Positions 2,334-15,204 of a stretch of 18,002 nt of DNA are shown here, one piece after another. A model generated the notes under the pieces. The model was not told the DNA's origin and did no database searches. It worked only from the letters and a program-made list of their open reading frames with translations. The translations under genes were made by a program, and so were the position numbers. Each line of letters begins with the position of its first letter. Positions within the stretch are counted from its first letter, which is position 1. This DNA comes from Schoenoplectus triqueter (lineage: Eukaryota > Streptophyta > Magnoliopsida > Poales > Cyperaceae). Location of the stretch: NCBI GenBank assembly GCA_964058805.1, contig CAXKVV010002118.1, positions 1 through 18,002 of the forward strand, read 5' to 3'.

Positions 2334-5300
2334 CTATGGGCCCAGAAAGCGGGACTCCAACTCCAATAACACAGTGCTAATAGTCTCTAAATAAGTATGG
2401 AGGGAGTGCCTATCCTCCTCCGAAGCTGCCTCGAAGTCCAGAAACTGAGCGAAGGCACTATCCCGAGCACTCGTGTGAATCTGCAGCTCTGGGAGACGTC
2501 CCGCTAGATGTCGGGAGAAGCCCTCCACCGATAATCTGTGGTCCTCTAGCTCCTGCACGAGCAGTCGAGCGGGCCCACCACTGACTCCCATAGAGCGGAG
2601 AGTGGCACAAGAGGAGAGTCGCTGAAGATAACGGAGTCGAGCAGCCTCCAAATGCCTGCGTAGCTCATGGATCTCCAACTCGTGCTGGTATACGAGAGAG
2701 CTCGCATCCTGGTAAGCCCTGAGCAGCTCCTCACACCTCCTAGAAATGAAAGTGCTCTCGAGATGAGGTGCAATGAGTAGAGCTGGCGCGATGGTATCCC
2801 GCATCAGCCCATACCAGTCAAAAGAGAAGCCACTGGGCAGAGAGTCCAGGATCTCGAAATCTAGCGGATAGCCTCCGAAGAAGGTATCCCGGAGTGCATC
2901 CCCTAGCGCGGCCAAGGCAAGCTGCACATCCCTCGATGAAACATCTGCAAATAAAATAAATGGGTTAGACAAATTGTTATAACCAAAGAAGAAATAGAAG
3001 AAAGAGAAGATCTAACCTATCGCCTCGTCGCCTGAGACAGGCGGGACTGAGTCAGGGATAGGGATGTCGGTCGCCTCAGGAGGACCCGTAGGTGTACCAG
3101 ACCCGGCTACAAAATAAAATAAAAGCATAAGTACATGAAAAGTAAAAATACGGGCAAATGACAGAAGGAAATATAAGATACCGGGAGAAGCATGAGGCTC
3201 GGCGAGACCCTCGCTAGCCGGAACCCCCGTCTCTGGGCTGTGGAATAGCTGCTCCACCAGCCAGCTCTCATCCAACTCTGAGTCATAATCGACTGCAACC
3301 CGCTCAGTCGAGACTCTGCTATCTGTGGCCATGAGAGGCTGCCCGTCGGGAGATGAAGAAGCATGAGATGGCCCTCCCTCGATCAATAATGGCTCGTCGC
3401 CTGCGGGCTCGACAGCCAATGGACTCCTCTGCTCTAAAGAAGCCTCCTCTGGTAGTGCAAGAGTGAGCACTGGCCCCAGAACCACATCAAATGAGTCACC
3501 GTCTCCAGTGGGTACCAGCAAGATCGACGGTGAGGCAGGACCGTCGTAGAAGAAAGACTCCGAGCGGTGTGGAGATGCCATGTCATCAGCCTCAGGGTCT
3601 GTAAAATCTACATGTAAGAATGAAAATACTAGTGCATGCTGACGACTAGGTATTAAATGAAGCACACGAACCTGCGACGGCAAGGTCGGTGCAAAACCCT
3701 GGAATAGCAGTACTCGCAGGCGCCGATAGATCTGCTATGATGTTGTCTCGGGTAGCCTCCACAGGAGATGTCCCATGAGCTGAAAAATAAACCCTAATCA
3801 GAGGTGTAAATGAAGTGCGCCCGAATAAGGATAAGCGAGTCAGTAAAGAAAATCACCCGGAGTGGGAGAAGGAAAAGAAGATGGAGAAGACGGCTGAAAG
3901 GCGCCGTCTCGATCTCTCCCCATGGTAGCTGGAGCCGGTGGCTCGACATATGGCTGGGAATGAACGCCAACTACTCGTGGACGAGGGACCGAGAATCCGG
4001 GCTCCGCGTGATCATGCTCATAAGCCAGCTCTGAATCAAAGAAGAATTGGTCGAAATGAGATGAGGCTTATCGAAAAGAAATAACCTAAAGGGTGATGAA
4101 GCATACCTGTGAGAATGGTCCTAACAGGAGCATGAGAAAACCGGCTGTCTAAACCCTGAAAATCGACAGGCTCTGCAGCAATGGCCGGGAAAGGGCTGCG
4201 ATCACGCGAAACGATGCCATCTAATAGAGGCTGGCCATCTCGCGGACATGTACTCCGGACGACCACCGGAGGAGTATACGACTGGTAAGAGCGAATGGTC
4301 TCATAATACCACTGCTGATAACGCCTCGTGAAGGTGGAAGTCCTAGAGGTGGATACCATCTGATAACGAGTGCCCGTGCCTAGTCGGAAGAGGTGAGTGT
4401 AGCACCATCCGATACCCTCCAAATCAGCCGCCAGTGATATAGGGCGGAGAAGAGGCGCTGGAATATCCTGATCCAAGCCGAACTGATGTGCACATCTATG
4501 TGGCGAATAGGGCTCGATGAACATATAATCGCCCAATCTGAGAGGAAGAAAACCCTGACGAATACTGATCAGGTACTCCAAGTCAATAGGCCTGGCTCGA
4601 ATGCTAGAAGAGTCAGAAGAGGGAACCCTGCTGTCAATCACCATCCTGTCAGCAACCCTAGATGTCCCACGGGCCACTGATCTGTCTCGGGAGAAGCGCA
4701 GATGGTCTCGACTCCTGAAGAATCTATACCGGGCAGCCTCCGGAGTCAATGAAGCTGGCTGCACCCCAGCTAAGTCACTCAATATGGGTAGATGATCTCG
4801 TAGCGTGACCGCCATGCCAGGATCATATGAGCCAGACCAATGCAAATGGAGCCATCCGCTAATCAGATGCCACGGGATCAGCTCCTGGCACTGTGAAGGA
4901 CTACGAGATGAAGTCAGACCGCGGAGGCACCTATAAATGTTGGCCAGTACAGGCACGGCCAAAGAAATCCTGTCGCCACGCGCGATCAGGCTCGCCATAA
5001 TGAACACCGAAGGCCGAATGGTGTATGCGGGGGAGCTAGGTAATAAGAAATAGCAAATCCACCAAGAGATGAAAGCTGTCAAATAAGTCTCCCGATCCAC
5101 GTCATGTGAACACAGGGTATCCTGAGATGGGATAGGGCTGTCGTGGTGAATCTCGAGCCGACCTGTACCAAATGGATCTCTGGTGGAAGCCAGACCCGTA
5201 GGGCGAGTGTGGACCCGATCGGTGAAATAGGCGATCCAATGTCTGAACGGAACTCCGGGATGCCCCCTCCGTAAATGATGATAAATCTCATAAATCCTAT

Positions 5301-5733
5301 GCAAAGAAGGCGGGAATCGAGTGAGGTCTCCCGAGTCAGCGGGCGAGACTATGAACTCGTCATAGAAATGACCGAAAATCGGCAGCCCGGTCAACTGCTG
5401 TATCTCCAGGAGGGTCGGAGTCAGCTCCCGATCGTCAATGAACAGAGTGTTGGTGGAATAGTTCCACCTCTCACAAAAGGCCCGTAGCCAGGGTGTGTCG
5501 ATATGATAATGAAACATCGACAAGAAAACCGAGTCATATATCCCGGCTCGCCTGAGCAGAGTCCCCTCCCGCATGAGCACGTACCGGGTCCACTCTAGCT
5601 GATATCCATGGCACTCCAAGGGAGTGATGAAGGGAGCAGTAGTCCACCTGTGAGCCTCCCCGTCAATAATCTCCTTGCCCAGGAGATGTGTCAAAGGAGC
5701 TGTAGAAGCAACGCCTAAGGGCTGAAGGGGCAT
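2334..5733 (-). CDS. Plant mobile domain (PMD) protein, spliced antisense gene inside the retrotransposon
   Basis: Six exons on the minus strand join into one open frame: exon 1 to 4107, then 4030-3857, 3779-3672, 3598-3182, 3106-3017 and 2944-2334 (TAG). All five introns are 72-77 bp, GT-AG and phase 1, with T-rich acceptors. From the first in-frame ATG (5733) the product is 1,008 residues. The frame stays open upstream to 5985 with protein-like sequence but no ATG, so a 5' exon may exist or the original start may be lost. Residues about 55-440 match the plant mobile domain (MAIN/MAIL1 family): LRAFCERW at 83-90, an LTPTLLEIQQLTGLP segment at 104-118. Residues about 543-806 are an acidic, Pro/Ser-rich linker. 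The last 200 residues are helical and probably coiled coil (HELEIHELRRHLEAARLRYL). PMD proteins of plants act in nuclear silencing and are recurrent in transposons. The role here is unknown. Confidence 0.85.
2945..3016 (-). other. Intron 5 of the PMD gene
   Basis: The minus-strand donor GTTAGA follows GCGATAG and the acceptor is TTTATTTTATTTGCAG. It is 72 bp, phase 1. Splicing joins the ...SGDEAI and DVSSRD... frames through a GAT codon and skips an in-frame TAG right at the donor, so it is needed to reach the C-terminal domain. Confidence 0.85.
3107..3181 (-). other. Intron 4 of the PMD gene
   Basis: 75 bp, phase 1, donor GTATCT and acceptor TTTTATTTTGTAG on the minus strand. It is a multiple of three without a stop, so retention would add a hydrophobic insert (ILYFLLSF...) quite unlike the flanking acidic linker. 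That contrast supports real splicing. Confidence 0.75.
3599..3671 (-). other. Intron 3 of the PMD gene
   Basis: 73 bp, phase 1, donor GTTCGT after GTCGCAG and acceptor TAGATTTTACAG. It joins ...TDLAVA to DPEADDMASP through a split GAC codon. Confidence 0.8.
3780..3856 (-). other. Intron 2 of the PMD gene
   Basis: 77 bp, phase 1, donor GTGATT and acceptor GGTTTATTTTTCAG. It joins ...FPSPTP to AHGTSPVEA through a split GCT codon. The small exon 3 (108 bp) has no other support than the consistent frame and splice signals. Confidence 0.75.
4031..4106 (-). other. Intron 1 of the PMD gene
   Basis: 76 bp, phase 1, donor GTATGC after CTCACAG and acceptor TTCTTCTTTGATTCAG. It separates the mobile-domain exon from the linker exons and joins RTILT to ELAYEHDH through a split GAG codon. 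Confidence 0.8.
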
Positions 5734-5985
5734 GATGTCATGAGGCTGATCATCCCTGAAGAATAAACCGCCGCCTCGCGGGTAGACAGGAGTCGCTCGG
5801 ATGGCTGAGACGAGAGGAGTCCAATCGCTAGGATCCTCATAAAAAGAATGATAATGACTCAAGGGGCGACGCGGAATGGCGTCATGAGATAAAACTACAA
5901 TACCCGAAGAAGAGAAGACGTCATGAGAAATGAAATGATGAATAATAAGGAATAATGCACCAAGACAAGCCTTTCGAGCGTTCAA

Positions 5986-6077
5986 GACTCGTCTTGGTGG
6001 GTGGCTCTTTGTTTACCCTTGAAAAATTTCAAGGATGAATGGATGAATAAATGAAATAAATTGATGATAAAATCATA
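5986..6077 (-). promoter_or_regulatory. 5' flank of the PMD gene with an 18-bp palindrome
   Basis: Between the PMD open frame and the purine tract lies CCTTGAAA-AA-TTTCAAGG (6017-6034), two perfect 8-bp arms. The only minus-strand ATG here (near 6074) runs into a stop inside the palindrome, so no first coding exon is evident. The antisense promoter should lie here or in the LTR. No convincing minus-strand TATA box is identified. Confidence 0.35.
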
Positions 6078-6100
6078 AGAAAGGGGAAGAAGAGAGAGAG
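6078..6100 (+). other. Candidate polypurine tract before the 3' LTR
   Basis: An uninterrupted run of A and G (AGAAAGGGGAAGAAGAGAG and on) lies between the antisense gene and the promoter-rich region. LTR retrotransposons prime plus-strand DNA synthesis at such a tract directly upstream of the 3' LTR. A TG that could start the LTR is at 6104-6105. Other purine runs (2290-2320, 2985-3010) lie inside or beyond the PMD gene and are less likely. Confidence 0.5.
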
Positions 6101-6162
6101 CAGTGGAAAGGTGGCCCACTGATCAGGAAAAGTCGCTGCATAACCCCGGAACAAATCCATTA

Positions 6163-6205
6163 GTCCCACAATGGAATGCTGAGCGCAAAGTGAAGAGTAT
6201 AAATA
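6163..6205 (+). promoter_or_regulatory. snRNA-type promoter-like pair, copy 1 (USE-like + TATA)
   Basis: GTCCCACA at 6163-6170 equals the first eight bases of the plant upstream sequence element RTCCCACATCG of snRNA genes. TATAAATA follows at 6198-6205, 24 nt after an 11-nt element would end. In plants about 23-25 nt is the spacing of RNA polymerase III snRNA promoters; polymerase II ones use about ten more. The last three element bases differ (ATG for TCG). Confidence 0.45.
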
Positions 6206-6224
6206 CCCCGCTATTCTCTATCCA

Positions 6225-6300
6225 CTCAGCATGTGTGACACCCAAGAAGATCGAGGGAGAGAGGAGACCTCTTGGGTGTCACCATGTGATTATATCTTTT
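6225..6300 (+). ncRNA. Candidate short hairpin RNA, copy 1
   Basis: Starting about 27 nt after the TATA box, the sequence folds into a perfect 13-bp stem (6235-6247 with 6270-6282, GTGACACCCAAGA/TCTTGGGTGTCAC) with a purine-rich loop, and reaches TTTT at 6297-6300, a minimal polymerase III stop. A transcript would be about 75 nt and mostly hairpin. Transcription is inferred, not shown. Confidence 0.35.
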
Positions 6301-6408
6301 CTGACAAGTGGGACCCACATGGCAGTCCCTTATGAGCAGCTCCAATGACATGGACCTAGCCTATTTTGCTAAGAAAGCTAACCAACCCGGAATAGAGGTT
6401 AAGCATTA

Positions 6409-6451
6409 ATCCCACAATGAAATAATATGGTGAAAGACGAGGATATAAATA
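6409..6451 (+). promoter_or_regulatory. snRNA-type promoter-like pair, copy 2 (USE-like + TATA)
   Basis: ATCCCACA at 6409-6416 and TATAAATA at 6444-6451 repeat copy 1 with an offset of exactly 246 bp, keeping the 35-bp start-to-start distance although the DNA between the two boxes has diverged. Confidence 0.45.
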
Positions 6452-6469
6452 CCCCACCACCTCCTACTC

Positions 6470-6544
6470 ATTCGAGGTGGCTGACCCTCGGGAGATCTAG
6501 GAGAGAGAAAATCTCTTGATGGGTCAGCCATTTGATTATATTTT
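6470..6544 (+). ncRNA. Candidate short hairpin RNA, copy 2
   Basis: Stem of 6478-6496 with 6511-6530: TGGCTGACCC/GGGTCAGCCA, one bulged T (6520), then nine more pairs including two G-T. The loop is CTAGGAGAGAGAAA and TTTT occurs at 6541-6544. Compared with copy 1 both arms have changed yet still pair, while the purine-rich loop is kept. Confidence 0.35.
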
Positions 6545-6604
6545 CTCTTACAAGTGGGACCCACCTGGCAGCCCCTTGTAGATGAACCTAATAGCATAGC
6601 CTAT

Positions 6605-6660
6605 CTGATGAGTCACCCATGTGACCATTTTCACTGACAGGTGGACCCCACACCTCAGTG
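6605..6660 (+). repeat. Partial third copy of the hairpin-RNA unit tail
   Basis: AGTCACCCATGTGACCATTT followed by CACTGACAGGTGGACCCCACA matches the segment downstream of hairpin 1 (6278-6322) and hairpin 2. Neither the promoter boxes nor the full stem are present. Confidence 0.45.
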
Positions 6661-6827
6661 ACCTATTGAAGAGGGTCAGAATTGAACCCTAGAAGTCTGC
6701 CTTTGAAGCTAACCCTAGGAAGGAGCTGAAGCAGTATAATCCCTATACTACATGAAATGATGTCAATGCCAAGCTAGCATTTTGATGCAACTAATCATGA
6801 GAAATTCCAAATGTGATTTTGCTTTCA

Positions 6828-7050
6828 AGGCTGACCTGGTGCCAAAGCTGCGAGCAACCACCTAACCATGCTTTGATTTGTGTTAATTACTGATAAGTAG
6901 TCAGTTCTTTGACCAAGTCACCCTCATGTTAAGGGATTGAAAGTCAATTTCACAAGACTGATCAGGTGCCAAAGCTGGGAGCAACCACCTGATCAAGTCT
7001 AGATTTGTATTAATTGCTGATAAGTAGTCAGCATTTGATCAAATCAAGCC
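6828..7050. repeat. Diverged 127-bp tandem duplication with hairpins
   Basis: Two units share GGTGCCAAAGCTG, GAGCAACCACCT and CTGATAAGTAGTCAG (loop at 6894 and 7021, offset 127). Unit 1 has ACTGA/TCAGT (6889-6905) and TGAC-CAA-GTCA (6910-6920). Unit 2 has GCTGA/TCAGC (7016-7032) and TTGAT-CAA-ATCAA (7035-7047). Loops are identical and the arms differ by paired changes. Unit 2 also has a perfect 10-bp stem TGATCAGGTG/CACCTGATCA (6959-6995). Confidence 0.7.
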
Positions 7051-7466
7051 CTAATGAATATCAATATAAGTCTAATTGGTGTTTAGTTAGGGTGGTTTCT
7101 GCAAGAGAGAGATAATTGGCAGAGACATTGAGCTACAAATGAGATCAGGGATTAATTCATAAGGAATAATAGGATTTTATGAATAAAAGAATTTTTAATT
7201 CAGAGAGGCAGGGGCAAAAAATGGAATTAAAAATTACAGGGATGATCATCATGATTTTAGGGATTTTTGGTGAAAATTTCATAATTTTTGGATAAGTGGA
7301 GCTATTAAAATAAATTCAGGGAAGATAAAAGCAGAATAAATGGATTAATCAAGGGCTGAGATTTGATCAGAGCAGTTCTGGGTGCAAGTTGGGGATGATA
7401 GCAGCTCTGGGTACAAACTGGGTGCAAGAAACACAGAGGGAATAAAATAAGCGAAGAGAGAGGGTG
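7051..7466. other. LTR stretch without recognised features
   Basis: AT-rich with purine-rich patches. I see no gene, clear repeat or promoter box. Confidence 0.5.
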
Positions 7467-7691
7467 TGCCACGTGGCAGCCTCTCATTGGGCCATGTCAG
7501 TAAGTGGGCCCCACCCAGGTATGAGTCACTGACAGGTGGGCCCCACCTAAGTGCCACGTGGCAGACAGCCAGTGGGCCACCTCACCACCCTAGTGCCACA
7601 TGGCACCACACCAGAGGTCCACTTAACTCAACCCTATGCCACATGGCACAGCCAGAGGAGACCACCTCACCACCCTAGTGCCACATGGCAC
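7467..7691. promoter_or_regulatory. Cluster of five G-box-like palindromes
   Basis: TGCCACGTGGCA occurs at 7467-7478 and 7552-7563, and TGCCACATGGCA at 7594-7605, 7637-7648 and 7679-7690. The first two contain the G-box core CACGTG, bound by plant bZIP and bHLH factors; the others carry CACATG, an E-box type core. A perfect 30-bp direct repeat (7577-7606 and 7662-7691) covers two of them. CTGACAGGTGGGCCCCACCT at 7530-7549 is a motif common in monocot intergenic DNA. Likely enhancer-type sequence of the LTR, by inference. Confidence 0.55.
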
Positions 7692-8246
7692 TACACTACA
7701 GAGCCACCTCAGCATGGATCAATACTATAACAGATGATTAATGGATTGATTAAACAAGTGGACCTATCAGAGTGTGCCAAGTCAGATCAATTAGTTTTAA
7801 GCAGAGAGTTAATCAATTCACAGCTGGACTAATGGGCCGAGATTCATATACTTACATGTGGGGCCCATTTGTCAGGTTTATGAATGTATAGCTCACACAG
7901 GCAATCATGCACCAAGCCTATGCACAGATCTAATCAGAGATTTAAATCAAAGGAAAGAAGCGATGTGTACCTGGCTCACTCGTGTTGCCTCTCTGACTGT
8001 GGGTCCCACCTAGCTGTGGACTCTGTGCGCCGGACGCACCCTCCTCTTTCTCTTCTCCTTCTCCCCTCCCTCTCTTCTTCCTTCTTCTCGACGAGGCAGA
8101 AGGCGCCATTAGAGGTGATCAAGCTCTCCAAAGCTCGCAACTCCAATTCCTTTCACCCAGAGTTAGCCTATACATAGGAGAGTATGTGCAATTGATCAGA
8201 ATTGAAAAACAACAAGTGAATAAGGTGATTGAGAGAGATGAATACC
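7692..8246. other. LTR stretch without recognised features
   Basis: Contains a pyrimidine-rich run at about 8040-8090. A short open frame at 7884-8177 is Ser-rich because of that run and has no recognisable domain. Confidence 0.45.
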
Positions 8247-8480
8247 TCGGGCAATTGATGAAGCACTTCAATTCCTACTTCAGAATCCAAAATTGATGAT
8301 GCAAACCTTCTCTATTTACTTAGGCGACGCTGTAGATAAAGAAAGAAGCAGCAATTAGGGAATGAATTGAAGCAATTGAGAAGGAGTGATAAAATCGGGC
8401 AAATTGATGAAATTTGAAACCTTGCACTCTCAGCTCGAATTATCAATGCTGGCAGCTTCCCTATGCTTACACGATGCTGT
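8247..8480. repeat. Old tandem duplication, about 148-bp period
   Basis: The segment starting TCGGGCAATTGATGAA (8247) recurs as TCGGGCAAATTGATGAAA (8395), and both run on through a CTTCC/CTTCT patch to GACGCTGT and CGATGCTGTTTAGG. Identity is moderate with indels. The second unit starts with a perfect 6-bp foldback CAAATT/AATTTG. Confidence 0.45.
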
Positions 8481-8848
8481 TTAGGTGATGGAGATTATCA
8501 ATTGGATGGTGGAGATATGTTTTTGGCCAAGAGATGGAATCGGGTAATAAAGCTTTGAGCTTTGGAAGAAGATAACAATGGCAGAGGGTAGAAGGGTATC
8601 CTAGATGCATTAGAGTGAGTATATATAGTATGTTTGGATGCTCTAGAAGGTTCTAACAACAGATGAGAAGTGGAGTCAAACATGGTCAACAGCCAAAGGC
8701 TTGAACTTTGGATTCGCTTGAATGGGGCCCACAACATAACAGAAGCACTAACAGAATTGAAGAACCATGTCCATGAGCCAAGGGAGTCTAATTGCTGGTG
8801 TATGAGTGGTGTATGGTTCTAATTCCCTGGTGCACCATCCCAATTGCC
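8481..8848. other. Sequence upstream of the main LTR TATA box
   Basis: Presumed U3. It holds no gene and no clear repeat. Confidence 0.4.
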
Positions 8849-8856
8849 TATATAAA
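8849..8856 (+). promoter_or_regulatory. Likely main LTR TATA box
   Basis: TATATAAA is followed about 30 bp later by an A/C-rich stretch and then GAGA-rich leader sequence, a typical plant polymerase II start region. The expected start is near 8880. It fits the U3/R border of the LTR. Confidence 0.55.
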
Positions 8857-8974
8857 CATCTGATCCATGGAGAATACATAACACACGCATACAGAAGACA
8901 AGAGATAGAGAGAGCACTTTATAGAGAGAGAGAGAGTAAGAAGAAGCAAGAATCCAGAAGAGAACTCTGATAGA

Positions 8975-9449
8975 ATCGATTGATCTCAGTTTTAACTTGA
9001 GAACTCGATCTATTTGCTTCAATTACTTGTTTGGAGGTAAGCTATATACTCTATTATCTGCCAATTAGGGATTAGTAGATTTAATTCTTGAAGATTGGAG
9101 CTTTAAAGATGTAATTGCCACTGGGTATCAGCATTTTACTGTGCTGTTTCTAAATTTCTTTGAATTTCAACTCTTTCTTCATGATTTTCTTCTTTATTTC
9201 ATGCATTGCAAGTTTATATAGTATAAATCTTTCATTTCTTTCAATGAATTTTGATTAAAGGTTGATGAATAAGGCTGTTAAATCGATTGATCTCAGTTCA
9301 ACTTGAGAACTCGGTAACAGTTGAGTTCATTGATCAATTCTTGATTCTTGAGTGAGAATTATCTTGATCCTTGTTAATACTATATGCATTAGGGTCTGGG
9401 GAGTCCTTTGAAGTCGATTGATCTCAGATATAATCTTGAGAACTCGACT
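8975..9449 (+). repeat. Three dispersed copies of a ~35-nt hairpin in presumed R/U5
   Basis: Copies at 8975-9009, 9282-9315 and 9412-9449 share TTGATCTCAG and CTTGAGAACTC. The outer arms are ATCGA/TCGAT, ATCGA/TCGGT and AGTCGA/TCGACT. The inner arms are CTCA+GTT/AAC, CTCA+GTT/AAC and CTCA+GAT/ATC, with the same bulged T before TGAG. Two independent paired changes separate copy 3 from copies 1 and 2. The first copy starts about 95 nt after the predicted transcription start. Confidence 0.75.
9031..9042 (+). promoter_or_regulatory. Possible 5' splice site in the LTR leader
   Basis: TTGGAG/GTAAGC has a near-perfect plant donor consensus just after the first leader hairpin, about 155 nt after the predicted start. 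It could be the end of a leader exon. No acceptor partner is assigned. Confidence 0.3.
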
Positions 9450-9873
9450 GATTTGGAATTTCAATACTGTTATCGCGTTCCGTTTCTGAAATTGAGTTTC
9501 AGATTGAGAATTAGGGAAGATTATAAGCATATGCATGCATGTCGTGGTTTGAATAAGTGTTATAAAGAGTATTAAGCATGACAATGTCAATATTGATCAA
9601 TGAATAACATGAATTTGAAGTAAATTGCAATCGGTACCAATGGCTTCTGTTGCGCTTTGACAATCATCCCGAATAATGGAGTTATAGGCCAATTTAAATC
9701 GTTCTAATCATGATAGAAGGCATTTACATGTATATACGATGCTGATTGTGTGCTTAATTGTTGTAAAAGATGATCAATTGCTTTGAATTTATGGGATATG
9801 AAATTCGGTACCGACTGGTACCAAATTGACTCATCCGACAGTGGTATACATCACGGTTCACCGGATGGATCGT
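9450..9873. other. Presumed U5, no recognised feature
   Basis: Moderately AT-rich with no gene or repeat identified. Confidence 0.4.
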
Positions 9874-9934
9874 CGATCAGACATTGTAGAATGATTCTCC
9901 ATGACAATACGATACTAGGGCAGTTGTCTGATCG
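9874..9934. repeat. 10-bp inverted repeat
   Basis: CGATCAGACA (9874-9883) and TGTCTGATCG (9925-9934) are perfect inverted repeats with a 41-nt spacer, in a locally GC-richer patch. Confidence 0.6.
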
Positions 9935-10091
9935 GAGAAAGACGGCCGCAATCGCCGGCGCTGCCAATGGCACTAATCTTGAAGCTCATGTTGACTGGAG
10001 AGTCAGAGAATCACGGCAGCACGAATATTGGCGTATGTGTGTGAATCTTGAAGAGATCGGGCGCATGAGGTGAAGCGTCATATTAATAGGG

Positions 10092-10215
10092 AGATGGATG
10101 TAGATCTGGGTCGTCCATCTATTACAAACCAATCTTGAAGCATATCCAGCGGCCCAAGTAAGAACGAAGTTAAATGAAAGATGAGCACCAATCTTGGAGC
10201 AGATCCAAAGGCCCA
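10092..10215. repeat. Short hairpin and 28-bp direct repeat at the presumed LTR end
   Basis: AGATGGA/TCCATCT (10092-10120) is a 7-bp stem. CCAATCTTGAAGCATATCC... (10129-10156) and CCAATCTTGGAGCAGATCC... (10188-10215) are 28-bp copies with four differences, each ending in GGCCCA. Confidence 0.6.
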
Positions 10216-10240
10216 GATTAGACCCATTAATTAAATAATA

Positions 10241-11410
10241 ACAGAATAGTAATAATATGGAGTAAATAAATGATTCAAGAATGCTATTGAACTCCAAATT
10301 GACTCAAATTTGTTTCTAAAATTTTCTTATTTTTCATACTATTTTTTTTATACAATAATATTCCAGTTTTAGAGATATAATCATGATAAAACAATTTAAA
10401 AGCAAAATACATTACATATATTGATATAGTTGACCTGGATTTGACTTGTCATTTTAAATACTATAAAAATTCCAAAAATACAAATAAAAATCATAAATAA
10501 TAACTAGATATATTTTAGTAATTTTTCAAGTGATTTTCCATGAAATAATAATAGTGATAGTAATATACTATAATAAATAATGAGATTAGCTATATTCTTT
10601 GATAAATAAAAAAATATATATGAATAATAATAGATATTATATTGATATTTTCTTGATATTTTCCCGTAAAAAAAAGAATAATAAAAATAAATAGCACAAA
10701 ATATACAAGATATACTACTATGGTAATAAATACATTTTCTTTTACAATAAAGAATAATGATATAGTTTTATAATATGAATTGTATTTCTTTTGTATTTCT
10801 TTACAAATATAAAAATATATACTTTTGATGAATAAAATGTAATAAAAATAATAGTTGTAATAAAAACATAATGAATTTCATCTCTTATGACTATTTTCAA
10901 TTAATAATAAAAATCTTATACTTTTCTATAGATAATAAATAGAAATAATAAAAATAGATATAATGAATAGTATAATAAATAGAATGGAATATTAATAATG
11001 ATTTCTTTTAGCTATTATAGATATTAAAAAAAATAATAATAATAAAAAAATACAATAATAAAAAAAATAATAATAGTAAAATAGTATAGCTAACCACCTT
11101 TTAATTTTGTAAATAATTCTTACATAATGAATAGTATTACAATATAATAGAATATAATAATAAAATTCTATTACTTTAGCTATTACAAACATTAAAAAAA
11201 TATATACAAATAAAATCATTGCCATTTTATTTTCTATTATTTTAGTAAGTGATTTTCTATAGAATAAATAGAGTTTAGAAATAATAAAAATAAAATTCTA
11301 CTATTTTAGCTATTATAAAATCCCAAAAATATAAATAAAGTTCTAAGTTAATAGCTACTCACTTTCTATTATTTTTGTAAATAGTTTTCTACATAGATAA
11401 ATAGCATTCA
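10241..11410. repeat. Very AT-rich zone with degenerate ~130-bp tandem repeats
   Basis: Recurring landmarks are TTAGCTATTA at 11176 and 11306 (130 bp apart) and near 11008, and GTAAATA/GTAAGTG followed by TTTTCTA and ATAAATAG near 11110, 11243 and 11377. TAGCTACTCAC at 11352 and TAGCTAACCAC at 11086 are 266 bp apart, twice the period. Units blur leftward. No coding sequence is supported. Confidence 0.5.
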
Positions 11411-11428
11411 AAATAATAATAATAATAA

Positions 11429-11506
<78 letters not shown>
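11411..11506. repeat. (TAA)n microsatellite
   Basis: Nearly pure AAT/TAA trinucleotides, interrupted by one AAAATAA near the left end. On the minus strand it reads as a poly-isoleucine frame, which is an artefact. Confidence 0.95.
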
Positions 11507-11508
<2 letters not shown>

Positions 11509-11580
11509 GCATCTTTACAATAGAGATAATAATAAGAGATATTATATGGGCTTTGTGTATTTTGATGAATAAAAAATGTT

Positions 11581-12313
11581 CACACAAGGAGTGTGGAGCC
11601 ACATGAGAATATTTGCACAACATTTAGGACGATATGTCGAGACAAGAATATCTTGACATTTGATGAATAATAATAAGATACGTTGAGACAAGAACATCTT
11701 GACGCGAGAAGATTAAGGCTTTGATAGCAACATGAAGAAGATGCGTTGAGACAGGAACATCTCGACGTGAGGAGATTAAGGCTTCGATAGCAACATGAAG
11801 AAGATGCGTTGAGACAAGAACATCTCGACGTGAGGAGATTAAGGCTTCGATAGCAATATGAAGAAAATGCGTTGAGACAAGAACATCTTGACGTGAGAAG
11901 ATTAAGGCTTCGATAGCAACCTGAGAAGATACATCGAGACAGGAACATTTTGATGTTTGATGAAGAATAACCAGAGCTACGATACTAACATGAAGATATA
12001 CGTCGACTCTGAAGAAGAAGAACATTACGATGTCCTAGAGAGGTGACATCTTAATGACTCGCTGCCATGAGCAAGTAACTCATGATTGAATACGCTCACA
12101 CAAGGGGTGTAGGGCTACATAGTAATTTTGCACAAGTAATGCAACACGTAAGATGATTAGTCGAGACAAGAACATCTTGACGCTCGTTGAAGATTGACCA
12201 AAGCTACGACATCAGCATGGAGAAATATGTCGACTTTGAAGATGAAGAACATTACGATGTCCGAGCGAAGTGACATCTTAATGACTCGGTGTCATGAACA
12301 AGTAATTCATGAC
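11581..12313. repeat. Duplicated hairpin module
   Basis: Two related modules, 11581-12084 and about 12096-12313, have the same order: a CACACAAGG...GTGT head, a GAGACAAGAACATCTTGAC hairpin, a GATGTC/GACATC hairpin (12029-12050; 12256-12277) and a CAAGTAA-loop hairpin. The last is CATGAG/CTCATG (12066-12084) in module 1 and GTCATGAA/TTCATGAC (12291-12313) in module 2. The head hairpin is GTGTG-GAGC-CACAT (11591-11604) against GTGTA-GGGC-TACAT (12107-12120). Module 1 is longer because it carries the 63-bp tandem copies. Confidence 0.75.
11681..11932. repeat. Four tandem 63-bp units
   Basis: Units 11681-11743, 11744-11806, 11807-11869 and 11870-11932 keep an exact 63-bp period (GATTAAGGCT at 11711, 11774, 11837, 11900). 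Each starts with a hairpin CGTTGAGA/TCTYGACG around a CARGAACA loop. Degenerate flanking copies have other pairing arms: ATGTCGAGA/TCTTGACAT (11634-11659), ACATCGAGA/TTTTGATGT (11931-11956) and GTCGAGA/TCTTGAC (12160-12181). Confidence 0.9.
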
Positions 12314-12332
12314 CATTTGAGCTGGCAAGACT

Positions 12333-12921
12333 GAACTCGTCCGTCGACGAGTTTGTCTCCCGGCTCACTTCCCGAGACTGTGAGATTGAATCGGTCTGTT
12401 GGTAGATTCATCCACAAAACAGTGAATGTGAACCGTTCTGTAGGTAGGTTCCTTCACTAACACATGCCTCAATGTTGAACTGGCCCAGCGCTTCAGGTTT
12501 AATATTGTGTGCAATTGTGTTTCCTAGGTTTATGAATCGGCTTAGTGCTACGAATTCATGATCTAGAAGATCGGTGAGAAGAAATACGTGGGCCATAGCC
12601 ACCCTTCTCCTGATTCACCAACCTCAAGGTCAACCGGCTCAGTGCTTCGAGTTGTATTTTGTGTGATTGGTTGTTGACTAGTTAAGATTGAACCGGTCTG
12701 TTTGTAGGTTTATCTTCTAGATCAACGGAGGTCGAGTCGGTCTGTATGTAGACTCACCTCAAGCCCCCTATGAAGAGATTAACCTGGTCTGTTGGTAAGG
12801 TTACATCTCGAGGTGGCATGGACTGAACCGGTCTGTTTGTAGGTTCGTCCCCCATAGGATAAAACCGATCTGTTTGTAGGTTTTGTCCCCCCCTAGATTG
12901 AACCGATCTGTTTGTAGGTTC
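12333..12921 (+). repeat. Array of 12 hairpins in two families with conserved loops and co-varying arms
   Basis: Family A has nine copies, each with a loop of exactly 12 nt, consensus G(G/A)TCTGT(T/A)(T/G)GTA with small variants. Arms by 5' start: 12333 GAACT/AGTTT (diverged loop), 12388 GAATC/GATTC, 12430 GAACC/GGTTC, 12690 GAACC/GGTTT, 12734 GAGTC/GACTC, 12781 AACCT/AGGTT, 12825 GAACC/GGTTC, 12861 AAAACC/GGTTTT, 12900 GAACC/GGTTC. Several extend after a one-base bulge by outer arms unique to that copy, for example GAGGT/ACCTC (12728-12760) and GAGAT/ATCTC (12775-12809). Family B has three copies (12477, 12534, 12631) with a 14-nt loop like GGCTCAGTGCTTCG and arms GAACT/GGTTT, ATGAAT/ATTCAT and CAAC/GTTG. 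Confidence 0.85.
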
Positions 12922-12941
12922 ATCTTCCGTAGATCCCTTTT

Positions 12942-12947
12942 TATAAA
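12942..12947 (+). promoter_or_regulatory. TATA box after the hairpin array
   Basis: TATAAA within CCCTTTTTATAAACTTAG lies directly downstream of the last hairpin and is followed by a C/T-rich stretch. It resembles a polymerase II start region of an LTR, which would make the hairpin array its upstream U3 region. Confidence 0.45.
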
Positions 12948-12969
12948 CTTAGACGACCACTTGCCCATC

Positions 12970-13324
12970 TCTTAACTATACTATTTGCTTCTCTCTTTCA
13001 AAGATCCAGAGGTGCCTCGAGGTTCGTAGCCCAGGGTAATTAACGGTGGGGGCTTGCGCCCACCGGAATCTACAAGAACTCACAATCACTAAAAAACCCC
13101 CTGAATGTGCATCCAAATATCTCTAAACGGCCGAATCGGCCGACACCCATCAGATGCACGCTCGGGAGGGATCTCCGTGTCCTTCTTCCGCAGAACCCAT
13201 CGCCCGGCGGCGGTGCGGCGGCGCGCGAAAAAGGGTCGCACAATCGTACTAGACTATGAGAAAAACAATTCTAAAATAAAAAAAAATACGAATGAGCCAA
13301 CCTCCAACCTACTCCAAAAGTAGG
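12970..13324 (+). other. Possible LTR leader followed by a GC-rich block
   Basis: After the TATA box come CCTCGAGG, a strong hairpin GGTGGG/CCCACC with an 8-nt loop (13045-13064) and, at about 13125-13230, a GC-rich island with the palindrome CGGCCGA-A-TCGGCCG and CGG repeats. A short frame over the block (13105-13323) is Arg-rich and matches no family I know. This block contrasts sharply with the AT-rich DNA on both sides. Confidence 0.4.
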
Positions 13325-14371: not shown

Positions 14372-15204
14372 GGGTTCATTTGGTACTCCATGGAATAATA
14401 AAAAGTAGGAATAACATTGTTATTCTGATGAATTAATTTCCCAAATGAATTTTAGACTAAGTAGAATAGTGTGTAAGAGTGATAATTCGGTATACCAAAC
14501 TATAGATGGTATATCAGTTTAGCTCTCGTCGGAATAGCGATTATTATTTTATTATGTTGTATTATATTATTATATTATGATTATAATTTATTATTATTAT
14601 TATTATTATTATATTATTTAGTATCATTATTATATTATATTATTATCTTATAATTATGATTATTATTAATTATTATTTTATCATCAATGTTAGTATTATT
14701 ATATTTTTATGATTATAATTTTTTATTATTATATTATTATAATTATGATTATATATTATTATTATATTATTATGATTATGATAATATTTATTATTATTAT
14801 ATTATGATTATGGTTATATTATTATTATTATTATGACCATGATTATTATTATTTATTATTATTATTATCATGATTATGATTATAATTATTTATTACTATT
14901 ATATGATTATGATTATAACTTATTATTATATTATAATTATGATTATATTATTATTATATTATTATTATTTATTATGATTATGATTATGATTATGATTATG
15001 ATTATTTAATTATTATTTAGTTATACTATATTATATTATTATATTATTTAACTATTCTCATCAACAACTATCAAATGATATTTTCGCTCTTCTGAACAAT
15101 CAAGAATATTGTTCTTCTACCCCTCTTCTAAAATGACACTATTTTATTAGTCTTTCAAAATTATCACTCTTTAAAAGTTATTCTTTGATTTGCTAAACGA
15201 ACCT
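14372..15204. mobile_element. MITE-like element with TTA target duplication
   Basis: Terminal inverted repeats GGGTTCATTTGGTA (14372) and the complement of TGCTAAACGAACCT (ending 15204) match at 10 of 14 positions, all differences being transitions. TTA flanks both ends (14369-14371, 15205-15207), as in PIF/Harbinger (Tourist-like) elements. A perfect 12-bp subterminal inverted repeat AAGAGTGATAAT lies at 14475-14486 and 15160-15171. No transposase is present and the centre is an expanded TTA-rich tract. Confidence 0.65.
14540..15050. repeat. TTA/TTATGA-rich simple-sequence tract
   Basis: Nearly continuous ATT, TTA and GATTAT repeats with few other bases, inside the MITE-like element. It probably expanded after insertion. 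Confidence 0.9.

Follow-up and report, generated by a model that had tools for sequence, protein, structure and literature searches.

Why should a row of short hairpins keep a common loop while the arms that close it differ from copy to copy, and yet remain complementary? The question is raised by a stretch of 18,002 nucleotides of Schoenoplectus triqueter (contig CAXKVV010002118.1), which we refer to throughout as the window. A preliminary description, made from the letters alone, reported nine copies there with a 12-nt loop and complementary arms, eight of them with the same loop motif, and read the array as a conserved fold with compensatory arms. Here we set out the hairpins and the element that carries them, the covariation of their arms, the direction of their wobble pairs, and the explanations that these observations favor.

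The hairpins and their host element

Both counts in the preliminary description proved correct. Nine units, here termed class 1, lie at 12327–12926, all on the + strand, each closing a 12-nt loop with an inner stem of 5 bp. Their loops start at 12338, 12393, 12435, 12695, 12739, 12786, 12830, 12867 and 12905. Five standard pairs stand beside the loop in every unit (9/9), all of them Watson–Crick in seven units and with one G.T in two; the background for five pairs at that spacing is 189 of 17,980 window positions (1.05%, units included). Matches to GGTCTGTTTGTAGGTT with up to three mismatches number eight in the window versus 0.10 expected, and the arms quoted in the preliminary description are present in the sequence. 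The loop of the ninth unit (12333–12354) is unrelated to the other eight, and is self-complementary. The units, in order, are as follows:

12327–12359, + strand: class-1 unit 0, arms GAACT/AGTTT, with a different loop (28.5 bits)
12382–12414, + strand: class-1 unit 1, arms GAATC/GATTC
12424–12456, + strand: class-1 unit 2, arms GAACC/GGTTC; outer stem AGTGAA/TTCACT at 12421–12426/12453–12458
12684–12716, + strand: class-1 unit 3, arms GAACC/GGTTT
12728–12760, + strand: class-1 unit 4, arms GAGTC/GACTC; outer stem GAGGT/ACCTC
12775–12809, + strand: class-1 unit 5, arms AACCT/AGGTT; outer stem GAGAT/ATCTC
12819–12851, + strand: class-1 unit 6, arms GAACC/GGTTC; outer stem GGAC/GTCC
12856–12888, + strand: class-1 unit 7, arms AAAACC/GGTTTT, with two pairing states among copies
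12894–12926, + strand: class-1 unit 8, arms GAACC/GGTTC; outer stem AGAT/ATCT

Short inverted repeats as such are not clearly enriched, at 20.0 per kb in the array versus 13.8 to 18.3 in the remaining window. What is unusual is the common loop with covarying arms, not the density of inverted repeats.

The preliminary list was right in its nine units and missed others in the same LTR, namely three class-2 hairpins (12478, 12535 and 12632) and the class-3 hairpins of 11634–11960. These, and a fourth class, are:

11634–11960, + strand: class-3 hairpins, loop CAAGAACA or a near variant, partly in a 63-bp tandem array
12066–12084, 12128–12144 and 12291–12313, + strand: class-4 hairpins, loop CAAGTAA
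12477–12500, + strand: class-2 hairpin, 11-nt loop GCCCAGCGCTT, with an unpaired purine on the 3' side (repeat families D2/D3; pairing by eye)
12534–12557, + strand: class-2 hairpin (repeat families D2/D3; pairing by eye)
12631–12654, + strand: class-2 hairpin, with an identical 22-mer in the related LTR L086 (repeat families D2/D3; pairing by eye)

Pairing in classes 2 and 4 is based on few units, and the class-4 variants are too few for the strand test described later. Two further repeats may be recorded here. At 12023–12056 and 12250–12283, an inverted repeat, CATTACGATGTC/GACATCTTAATG, has fixed arms and differing middles, the opposite of the main pattern. At 8975–9440, three TCGATTGATCTCA...TTGAGAACTCG-like repeats, with the middle pairs GTT/AAC and GAT/ATC, are possible covarying hairpins (by eye).

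Within a retrotransposon's 3' LTR, the array occupies the U3 end, immediately upstream of a TATA-like site that was called by eye and is not clearly retained in the related LTR L085. The parts of the element in the window are:

1–609, + strand: integrase-like ORF, C-terminal end; an open frame, named by eye, that defines the sense strand
4036–5985, − strand: antisense ORF with a plant mobile domain (PF10536, E 6.3e-27)
6010–13242, + strand: 3' LTR (TG...CA) of the element, set by similarity to a 5' LTR copy from 6009/6010 and by the LTR end at 13242
12938–12952, + strand: TATA-like site, the predicted LTR promoter (by eye)

The window closes in, and slightly past, this LTR. The 5' LTR copy used for the LTR boundary (the C13 copy) is flanked on both sides by ACTGT (5 bp). 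The host is probably a Ty3/gypsy LTR retrotransposon. This is indicated by a Retrotrans_gag match (E 2e-07) in an open frame of 2132 aa in one element copy, by the antisense ORF with the plant mobile domain, and by the integrase-like frame by the 3' end, for which (1–609) Pfam returned no match. In each of seven LTR pairs compared, the best aligned piece is 99.4–100% identical, so the retrotransposon family is young. Other families were sought via the primer-binding-site region, and this gave one match, with three mismatches and unlike the site.

Several other features of the element and its surroundings were seen in passing. Beside the plant mobile domain ORF lie two more antisense ORFs, of 212 and 223 aa (2334–3683, minus strand; no Pfam match), and a direct repeat of 240 bp (1288–1750) separates the antisense ORFs from the integrase-like frame. 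Long AAT/ATT microsatellite-like arrays occur at 11412–11502, inside the LTR, and at 14540–15049, in the downstream flank. In the C13 copy (L011 2516–2597 and 2663–2743) the final ~80 bp of the LTR are present twice with a stretch between, an arrangement that resembles an LTR-end duplication.

Predicted folds and covariation

Folded singly, all nine class-1 units form both an inner and an outer stem; contrary to what had been claimed, outer arms are thus not peculiar to single copies. One unpaired 5' base lies between the stems in six of the nine (12333, 12388, 12690, 12734, 12825 and 12900). The exceptions are 12430, which has an irregular break, 12781, with its unpaired base on the 3' side, and 12862, with none. 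An extra 2-bp helix forms within the loop in units 12388 and 12781, and unit 12333 folds across its own loop. Antisense folds of single units are mostly, though not in every case, weaker than sense folds; that of 12734 is stronger. When 690 nt of the sense strand are folded as one, the inner pairs have mean probabilities of 0.82–1.00 in eight of the nine units and 0.27 at 12690; in the 690-nt antisense fold they reach 0.77 in six of the nine and at most 0.29 in three. Fold z-scores are weak. Over 120-nt windows with starts from 12361 to 12921 they run from +1.3 to −3.2 for the sense strand, and the mean over 11560–12970 is −1.70 for sense versus −1.46 for antisense. RNAalifold, suggested earlier as a check on the fold, recovers part of this structure: its consensus has six pairs, the inner five together with one at the base that we call unpaired, and omits the outer stem. 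Rfam gave no match up to E 1 in 6000–13300.

The arms can be compared well beyond the window. Genome-wide, the GGTCTGTTTGTAGGTT loop-plus-arm pattern has 981 + 930 matches at up to two mismatches versus 27 + 22 for the control, and symmetric arm searches of G.U and A.C type surfaced related LTRs with the loops GATCTGTTAGTA and GATCTGTTTGTA. Two related LTRs were examined: L086, with eight units, and L085, with seven units and older-looking. Nine further rows were usable (eight distinct), and two rows from the C56 contig were dropped as unlike array units. The window and its related LTRs together gave a covariation set of 32 units, six of which entered via patterns requiring G.U or A.C.

With the proposed structure, 86.3% of the cells in these 32 units are paired, and two-sided changes occur at nine of the ten pairs (6 of 500 shuffles reach this). 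Two-sided changes that keep the pairing fill 48 cells, versus 17.3 (sd 4.6) in shuffles, of which 0 of 500 reach the observed value; the shuffles treat the units as unrelated, and because the units share kinship, events are fewer than cells. Controls in which the pairing partner was slid give 8–15 such cells. A conserved fold with compensatory arms thus finds support outside the window as well. Further pair types show no clear excess (20 versus 17.3 in shuffles; 57 of 500 reach this). A structure that omits the unpaired 5' base performs well too, with 77.2% of cells paired and 46 two-sided cells. The inner arms occur in 15 combinations, of which 13 are fully paired and two, GTCCT/AGATC and GAACT/AATTT, have non-standard pairs. 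The innermost pair is U-A in 17 units and C-G in 15, and nothing else.

A second, independent sample comes from the GATCTGTTAGTA loop, for which the closing pair alone was scored, with a pattern that barred a left-hand G and a right-hand C. In the 100 sites listed out of 180 with GATCTGTTAGTA (control 19), the closing pair is mainly T-A (56) or C-G (28), the others having 1 C.A, 1 T.G, 1 A-T, 7 A..A and 6 T..T. Eighty-six of the listed sites have a pyrimidine on the left and a purine on the right; of these, 2 carry a mixed closing pair, where independent bases would give 38. Units with a purine–pyrimidine closing pair did not rise above the control (14 versus 13; second pair, 1 versus 0). Compensatory changes, one mark of a structured RNA under selection, exceed the controls. 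A covariance model built from the 32 units, the nine window units among them, recovers those nine, all in the sense direction, and nothing further in the window up to E 1. Run on 12 more loci from this genome, the model again detects the arrays, together with one doubtful antisense match (E 0.095).

Constraint among close copies was read from an alignment of 64 arrays (47 distinct; six overlapping loci, L001–L004, L006 and L008, excluded), in which a shared variant is one present in at least two distinct sequences, gaps being uncounted. In stems, shared variants number 1 on 90 inner-stem sites, 5 on 82 outer-stem sites and 0 on 36 class-2 sites; in loops, 9 on 108 class-1 sites and 4 on 33 class-2 sites; and elsewhere, 2 on 16 bulge sites and 23 on 238 spacer sites. 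Since the inner stems are less variable than the loops inside this young family, the loop is the conserved part only between units and families. 'Loop fixed, arms free' is true at that level, and not per position. Unit 7 occurs among the copies in two states, AGGATAAAACC/GGTTTTGTCTT and AAGACAAAACC/GGTTTGTCTT: wobble pairs become Watson–Crick pairs, and a 1-base deletion on one side leaves the opposite base unpaired. On the scale of the whole LTR, three usable comparisons give mismatches of 0.6–5.4% in 11960–13242 (the array and LTR end) and of 5.7–21.7% upstream of 11560, the L022 comparison having been dropped for the upstream part because it was probably spoilt by rearrangement. The class-3 stretch, 11560–11960, is not slow (5.1–15.7%).

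Strand direction of wobble pairs

Read on the sense strand, a transition in a stem turns a standard pair into either G.U or A.C; a DNA-level process should yield both equally. In the inner stems of the 32 units there are 14 G.U and 3 A.C; when the six pattern-ascertained units are set aside, 7 and 1 are left (p 0.07). The outer stems show no bias (9 G.U versus 8 A.C), three window units being apparently out of register there. Among the 47 distinct copies, stems hold 12 single variants to G.U and 0 to A.C, besides one that turns G.U into A-U and two of other kinds. Outside stems, the corresponding base changes stand at 17 versus 15, which differs from the stem counts with a Fisher p of 0.003, or of 0.016 if the one G.U-to-A-U change is scored as A.C-type. 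Shared variants in stems comprise 2 G.U, 1 Watson–Crick and 3 A.C, one of which, at 12857, was scored as an A.C break because the script used a fixed register.

The symmetric genome-wide patterns can be read in the same way. Rows with the exact loop make up 53 of 60 for the G.U-type and 21 of 27 for the A.C-type patterns (controls 16 and 1). By position, the innermost pair, at which CpG decay favors G.U, has 25 G.U versus 8 A.C, and the other four pairs have 34 versus 16. Strand-neutral inverted repeats in 11560–12960 have 7 G.T and 2 A.C, and elsewhere 8:10, 18:8 and 5:5; because the 18:8 comes from flank outside the LTR, we give this count little weight.

The class-3 hairpins, a set of 48 of 79 distinct units retained by sequence and not by pairing, have 60 G.U versus 3 A.C at base pairs 1–7, 4 versus 7 at base pair 8, and 9 versus 8 at base pair 9. 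They have 359 paired cells and 16 two-sided changes, values that 0 of 1000 shuffles reach. Base pair 4 occurs as G-C, G.U and A-U, and base pair 5 as C-G, U.G and U-A. Much of this is common by descent, so that the class-3 and stem counts are not independent events. G.U exceeds A.C on the sense strand, then, in inner stems, single variants and class 3, and not in outer stems or shared variants. Since a DNA-level process should be symmetric, the directional excess in the inner and class-3 stems points to selection on the sense RNA.

Explanations and known systems

We consider it probable, on balance, that the array forms a structured element within the sense RNA of the retrotransposon itself. 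The preliminary description had left the choice between a folded RNA, single-stranded DNA and quasipalindrome correction; the sense-strand G.U excess in the inner and class-3 stems favors the first, although the outer stems, having no such excess, do not join in this. The genomic RNA of LTR elements carries U3 at its 3' end, as in the layout described for Ty1 and Ty3 (PMC4974528). Once the element is transcribed, this 3'-terminal U3 copy would fold into a row of hairpins, each with an outer stem, often one unpaired 5' base, a 5-bp inner stem and a 12-nt loop of approximately GRUCUGUWDGUA. The loop is retained across units and families, and the arms differ in pairs only. An RNA-binding protein that reads the loop—the element's Gag or a host factor—may bind several copies together, and such binding may help the genomic RNA to be packaged, trafficked or exported. 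With the loop common to many copies, a loop-reading protein is the simplest explanation, and we infer that the likeliest role is that of a multivalent protein-binding signal in genomic RNA. A fuller version, which we put forward tentatively, is that the hairpins might form a multivalent RNA code, loop-sharing, bulged and interchangeable in their stems, in which one protein grips several loops and the element recognises its own RNA.

As to that protein, a CCHC zinc knuckle is absent by pattern from the one 2132-aa gag-side ORF examined (one copy), which weakens Gag as the loop binder and leaves it a candidate. The UCUG of the class-1 loop may resemble a nucleocapsid motif of murine leukaemia virus; a nucleocapsid-like reading of UCUG was set aside because of that missing zinc knuckle. 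The loop may also resemble a plant arginine tRNA and the iron-responsive-element loop, a short likeness to which we give no weight.

The first rival reading is an enhancer. The units would then be promoter-proximal, dyad-symmetric transcription-factor sites, and the hairpins incidental; the array does lie just upstream of the TATA-like site, repeats in tandem and diverges little, and a comparison with transcription-factor sites has been made for the Sirevirus palindromes, which sit upstream of the TATA box (PMC2829016). We regard this as unlikely, given that a dimer site should fix its arms, and here 13 of 15 different inner-arm combinations pair fully; that a loop read as duplex DNA needs no complementary flanks; and that the G.U excess of inner and class-3 stems is directional. 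Quasipalindrome correction, in which template switching rewrites one arm on the model of its partner and gives complementarity without selection, would yield the two-sided changes and the near-absence of mixed closing pairs. It is decidedly improbable nonetheless, for it predicts symmetric, ever more perfect palindromes, and what we find are an unpaired 5' base in six of nine units folded alone, directional wobble pairs, loops conserved between families, and few shared variants in inner stems. We give little credence to the idea that the hairpins are retained, or simply tolerated, as a source of small RNAs or as decoys in a conflict with host silencing, since stems of about 9–11 bp are short for Dicer substrates and the common loop would be left unexplained. 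What speaks for it is that, in maize Sireviruses, small RNAs are reported to be in excess on structured regions rich in palindromes (Bousios et al. 2016, via PMC10760457). Least credible is shared ancestry alone, with a few arm types arising once and spreading by tandem duplication or unit exchange while pairing goes unselected: the units are indeed paralogous and the same arm types recur, but each non-wobble combination among the fully paired ones would require a coordinated origin, and the slid-partner controls preserve ancestry and still lose most of the two-sided cells.

If the array does act as folded sense RNA, a plant LTR retrotransposon would have a cis-acting RNA element backed by covariation. 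The four adjacent hairpin classes would call for several readers, or one reader with several sites, and the conserved, repeated loop would be a ready bait for protein identification. LTR palindromes, usually taken as promoter DNA, could then bear the mark of selection on sense-strand RNA, and the strand test would be applicable to Sireviruses.

Among the best literature matches (open-licence; titles and abstract openings), covarying or repeated LTR hairpins of this kind did not appear; three known systems come near. Dispersed viral packaging signals have a common loop motif on variable stems. In RNA viruses, multiple packaging signals are reported to cooperate in one RNA (PMC6281560). The hairpins here differ in being clustered in ~600 nt of a retrotransposon LTR, and coat or Gag binding is only a candidate for them. 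Cis-acting RNA elements of retroviruses, Ty1 and Ty3, which act in packaging, dimerization and RNA transport, are folded parts of genomic RNA, as is predicted here. Ty3 is described as requiring, in cis, sequences from both its 5' and its 3' terminus (PMC4974528), and IAP and MusD as possessing RNA transport elements (PMC12786077); as far as these accounts go, none is an array of loop-sharing, arm-variable U3 hairpins.

The closest known system is the palindrome array of Sirevirus LTRs. The 3' LTRs of these Ty1/copia elements are reported to contain a cluster of 3–14 palindromic motifs that lies upstream of the TATA box, with a CGG-CCG arm core common to most elements and a middle that varies between elements (PMC2829016). 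The earlier statement that no repeat of this kind had been described therefore needs qualifying: palindrome arrays at the same LTR position are known, and it is their fixed arm core that sets them apart. In both systems, units with dyad symmetry that can form hairpins recur in the LTR, on the upstream side of a TATA box (called by eye in ours). Unlike the Sirevirus arrays, the array described here has no conserved CGG-CCG core; its 12-nt loop is common and its arms covary, even within one element, and its host is probably a Ty3/gypsy retrotransposon with an antisense plant mobile domain ORF.
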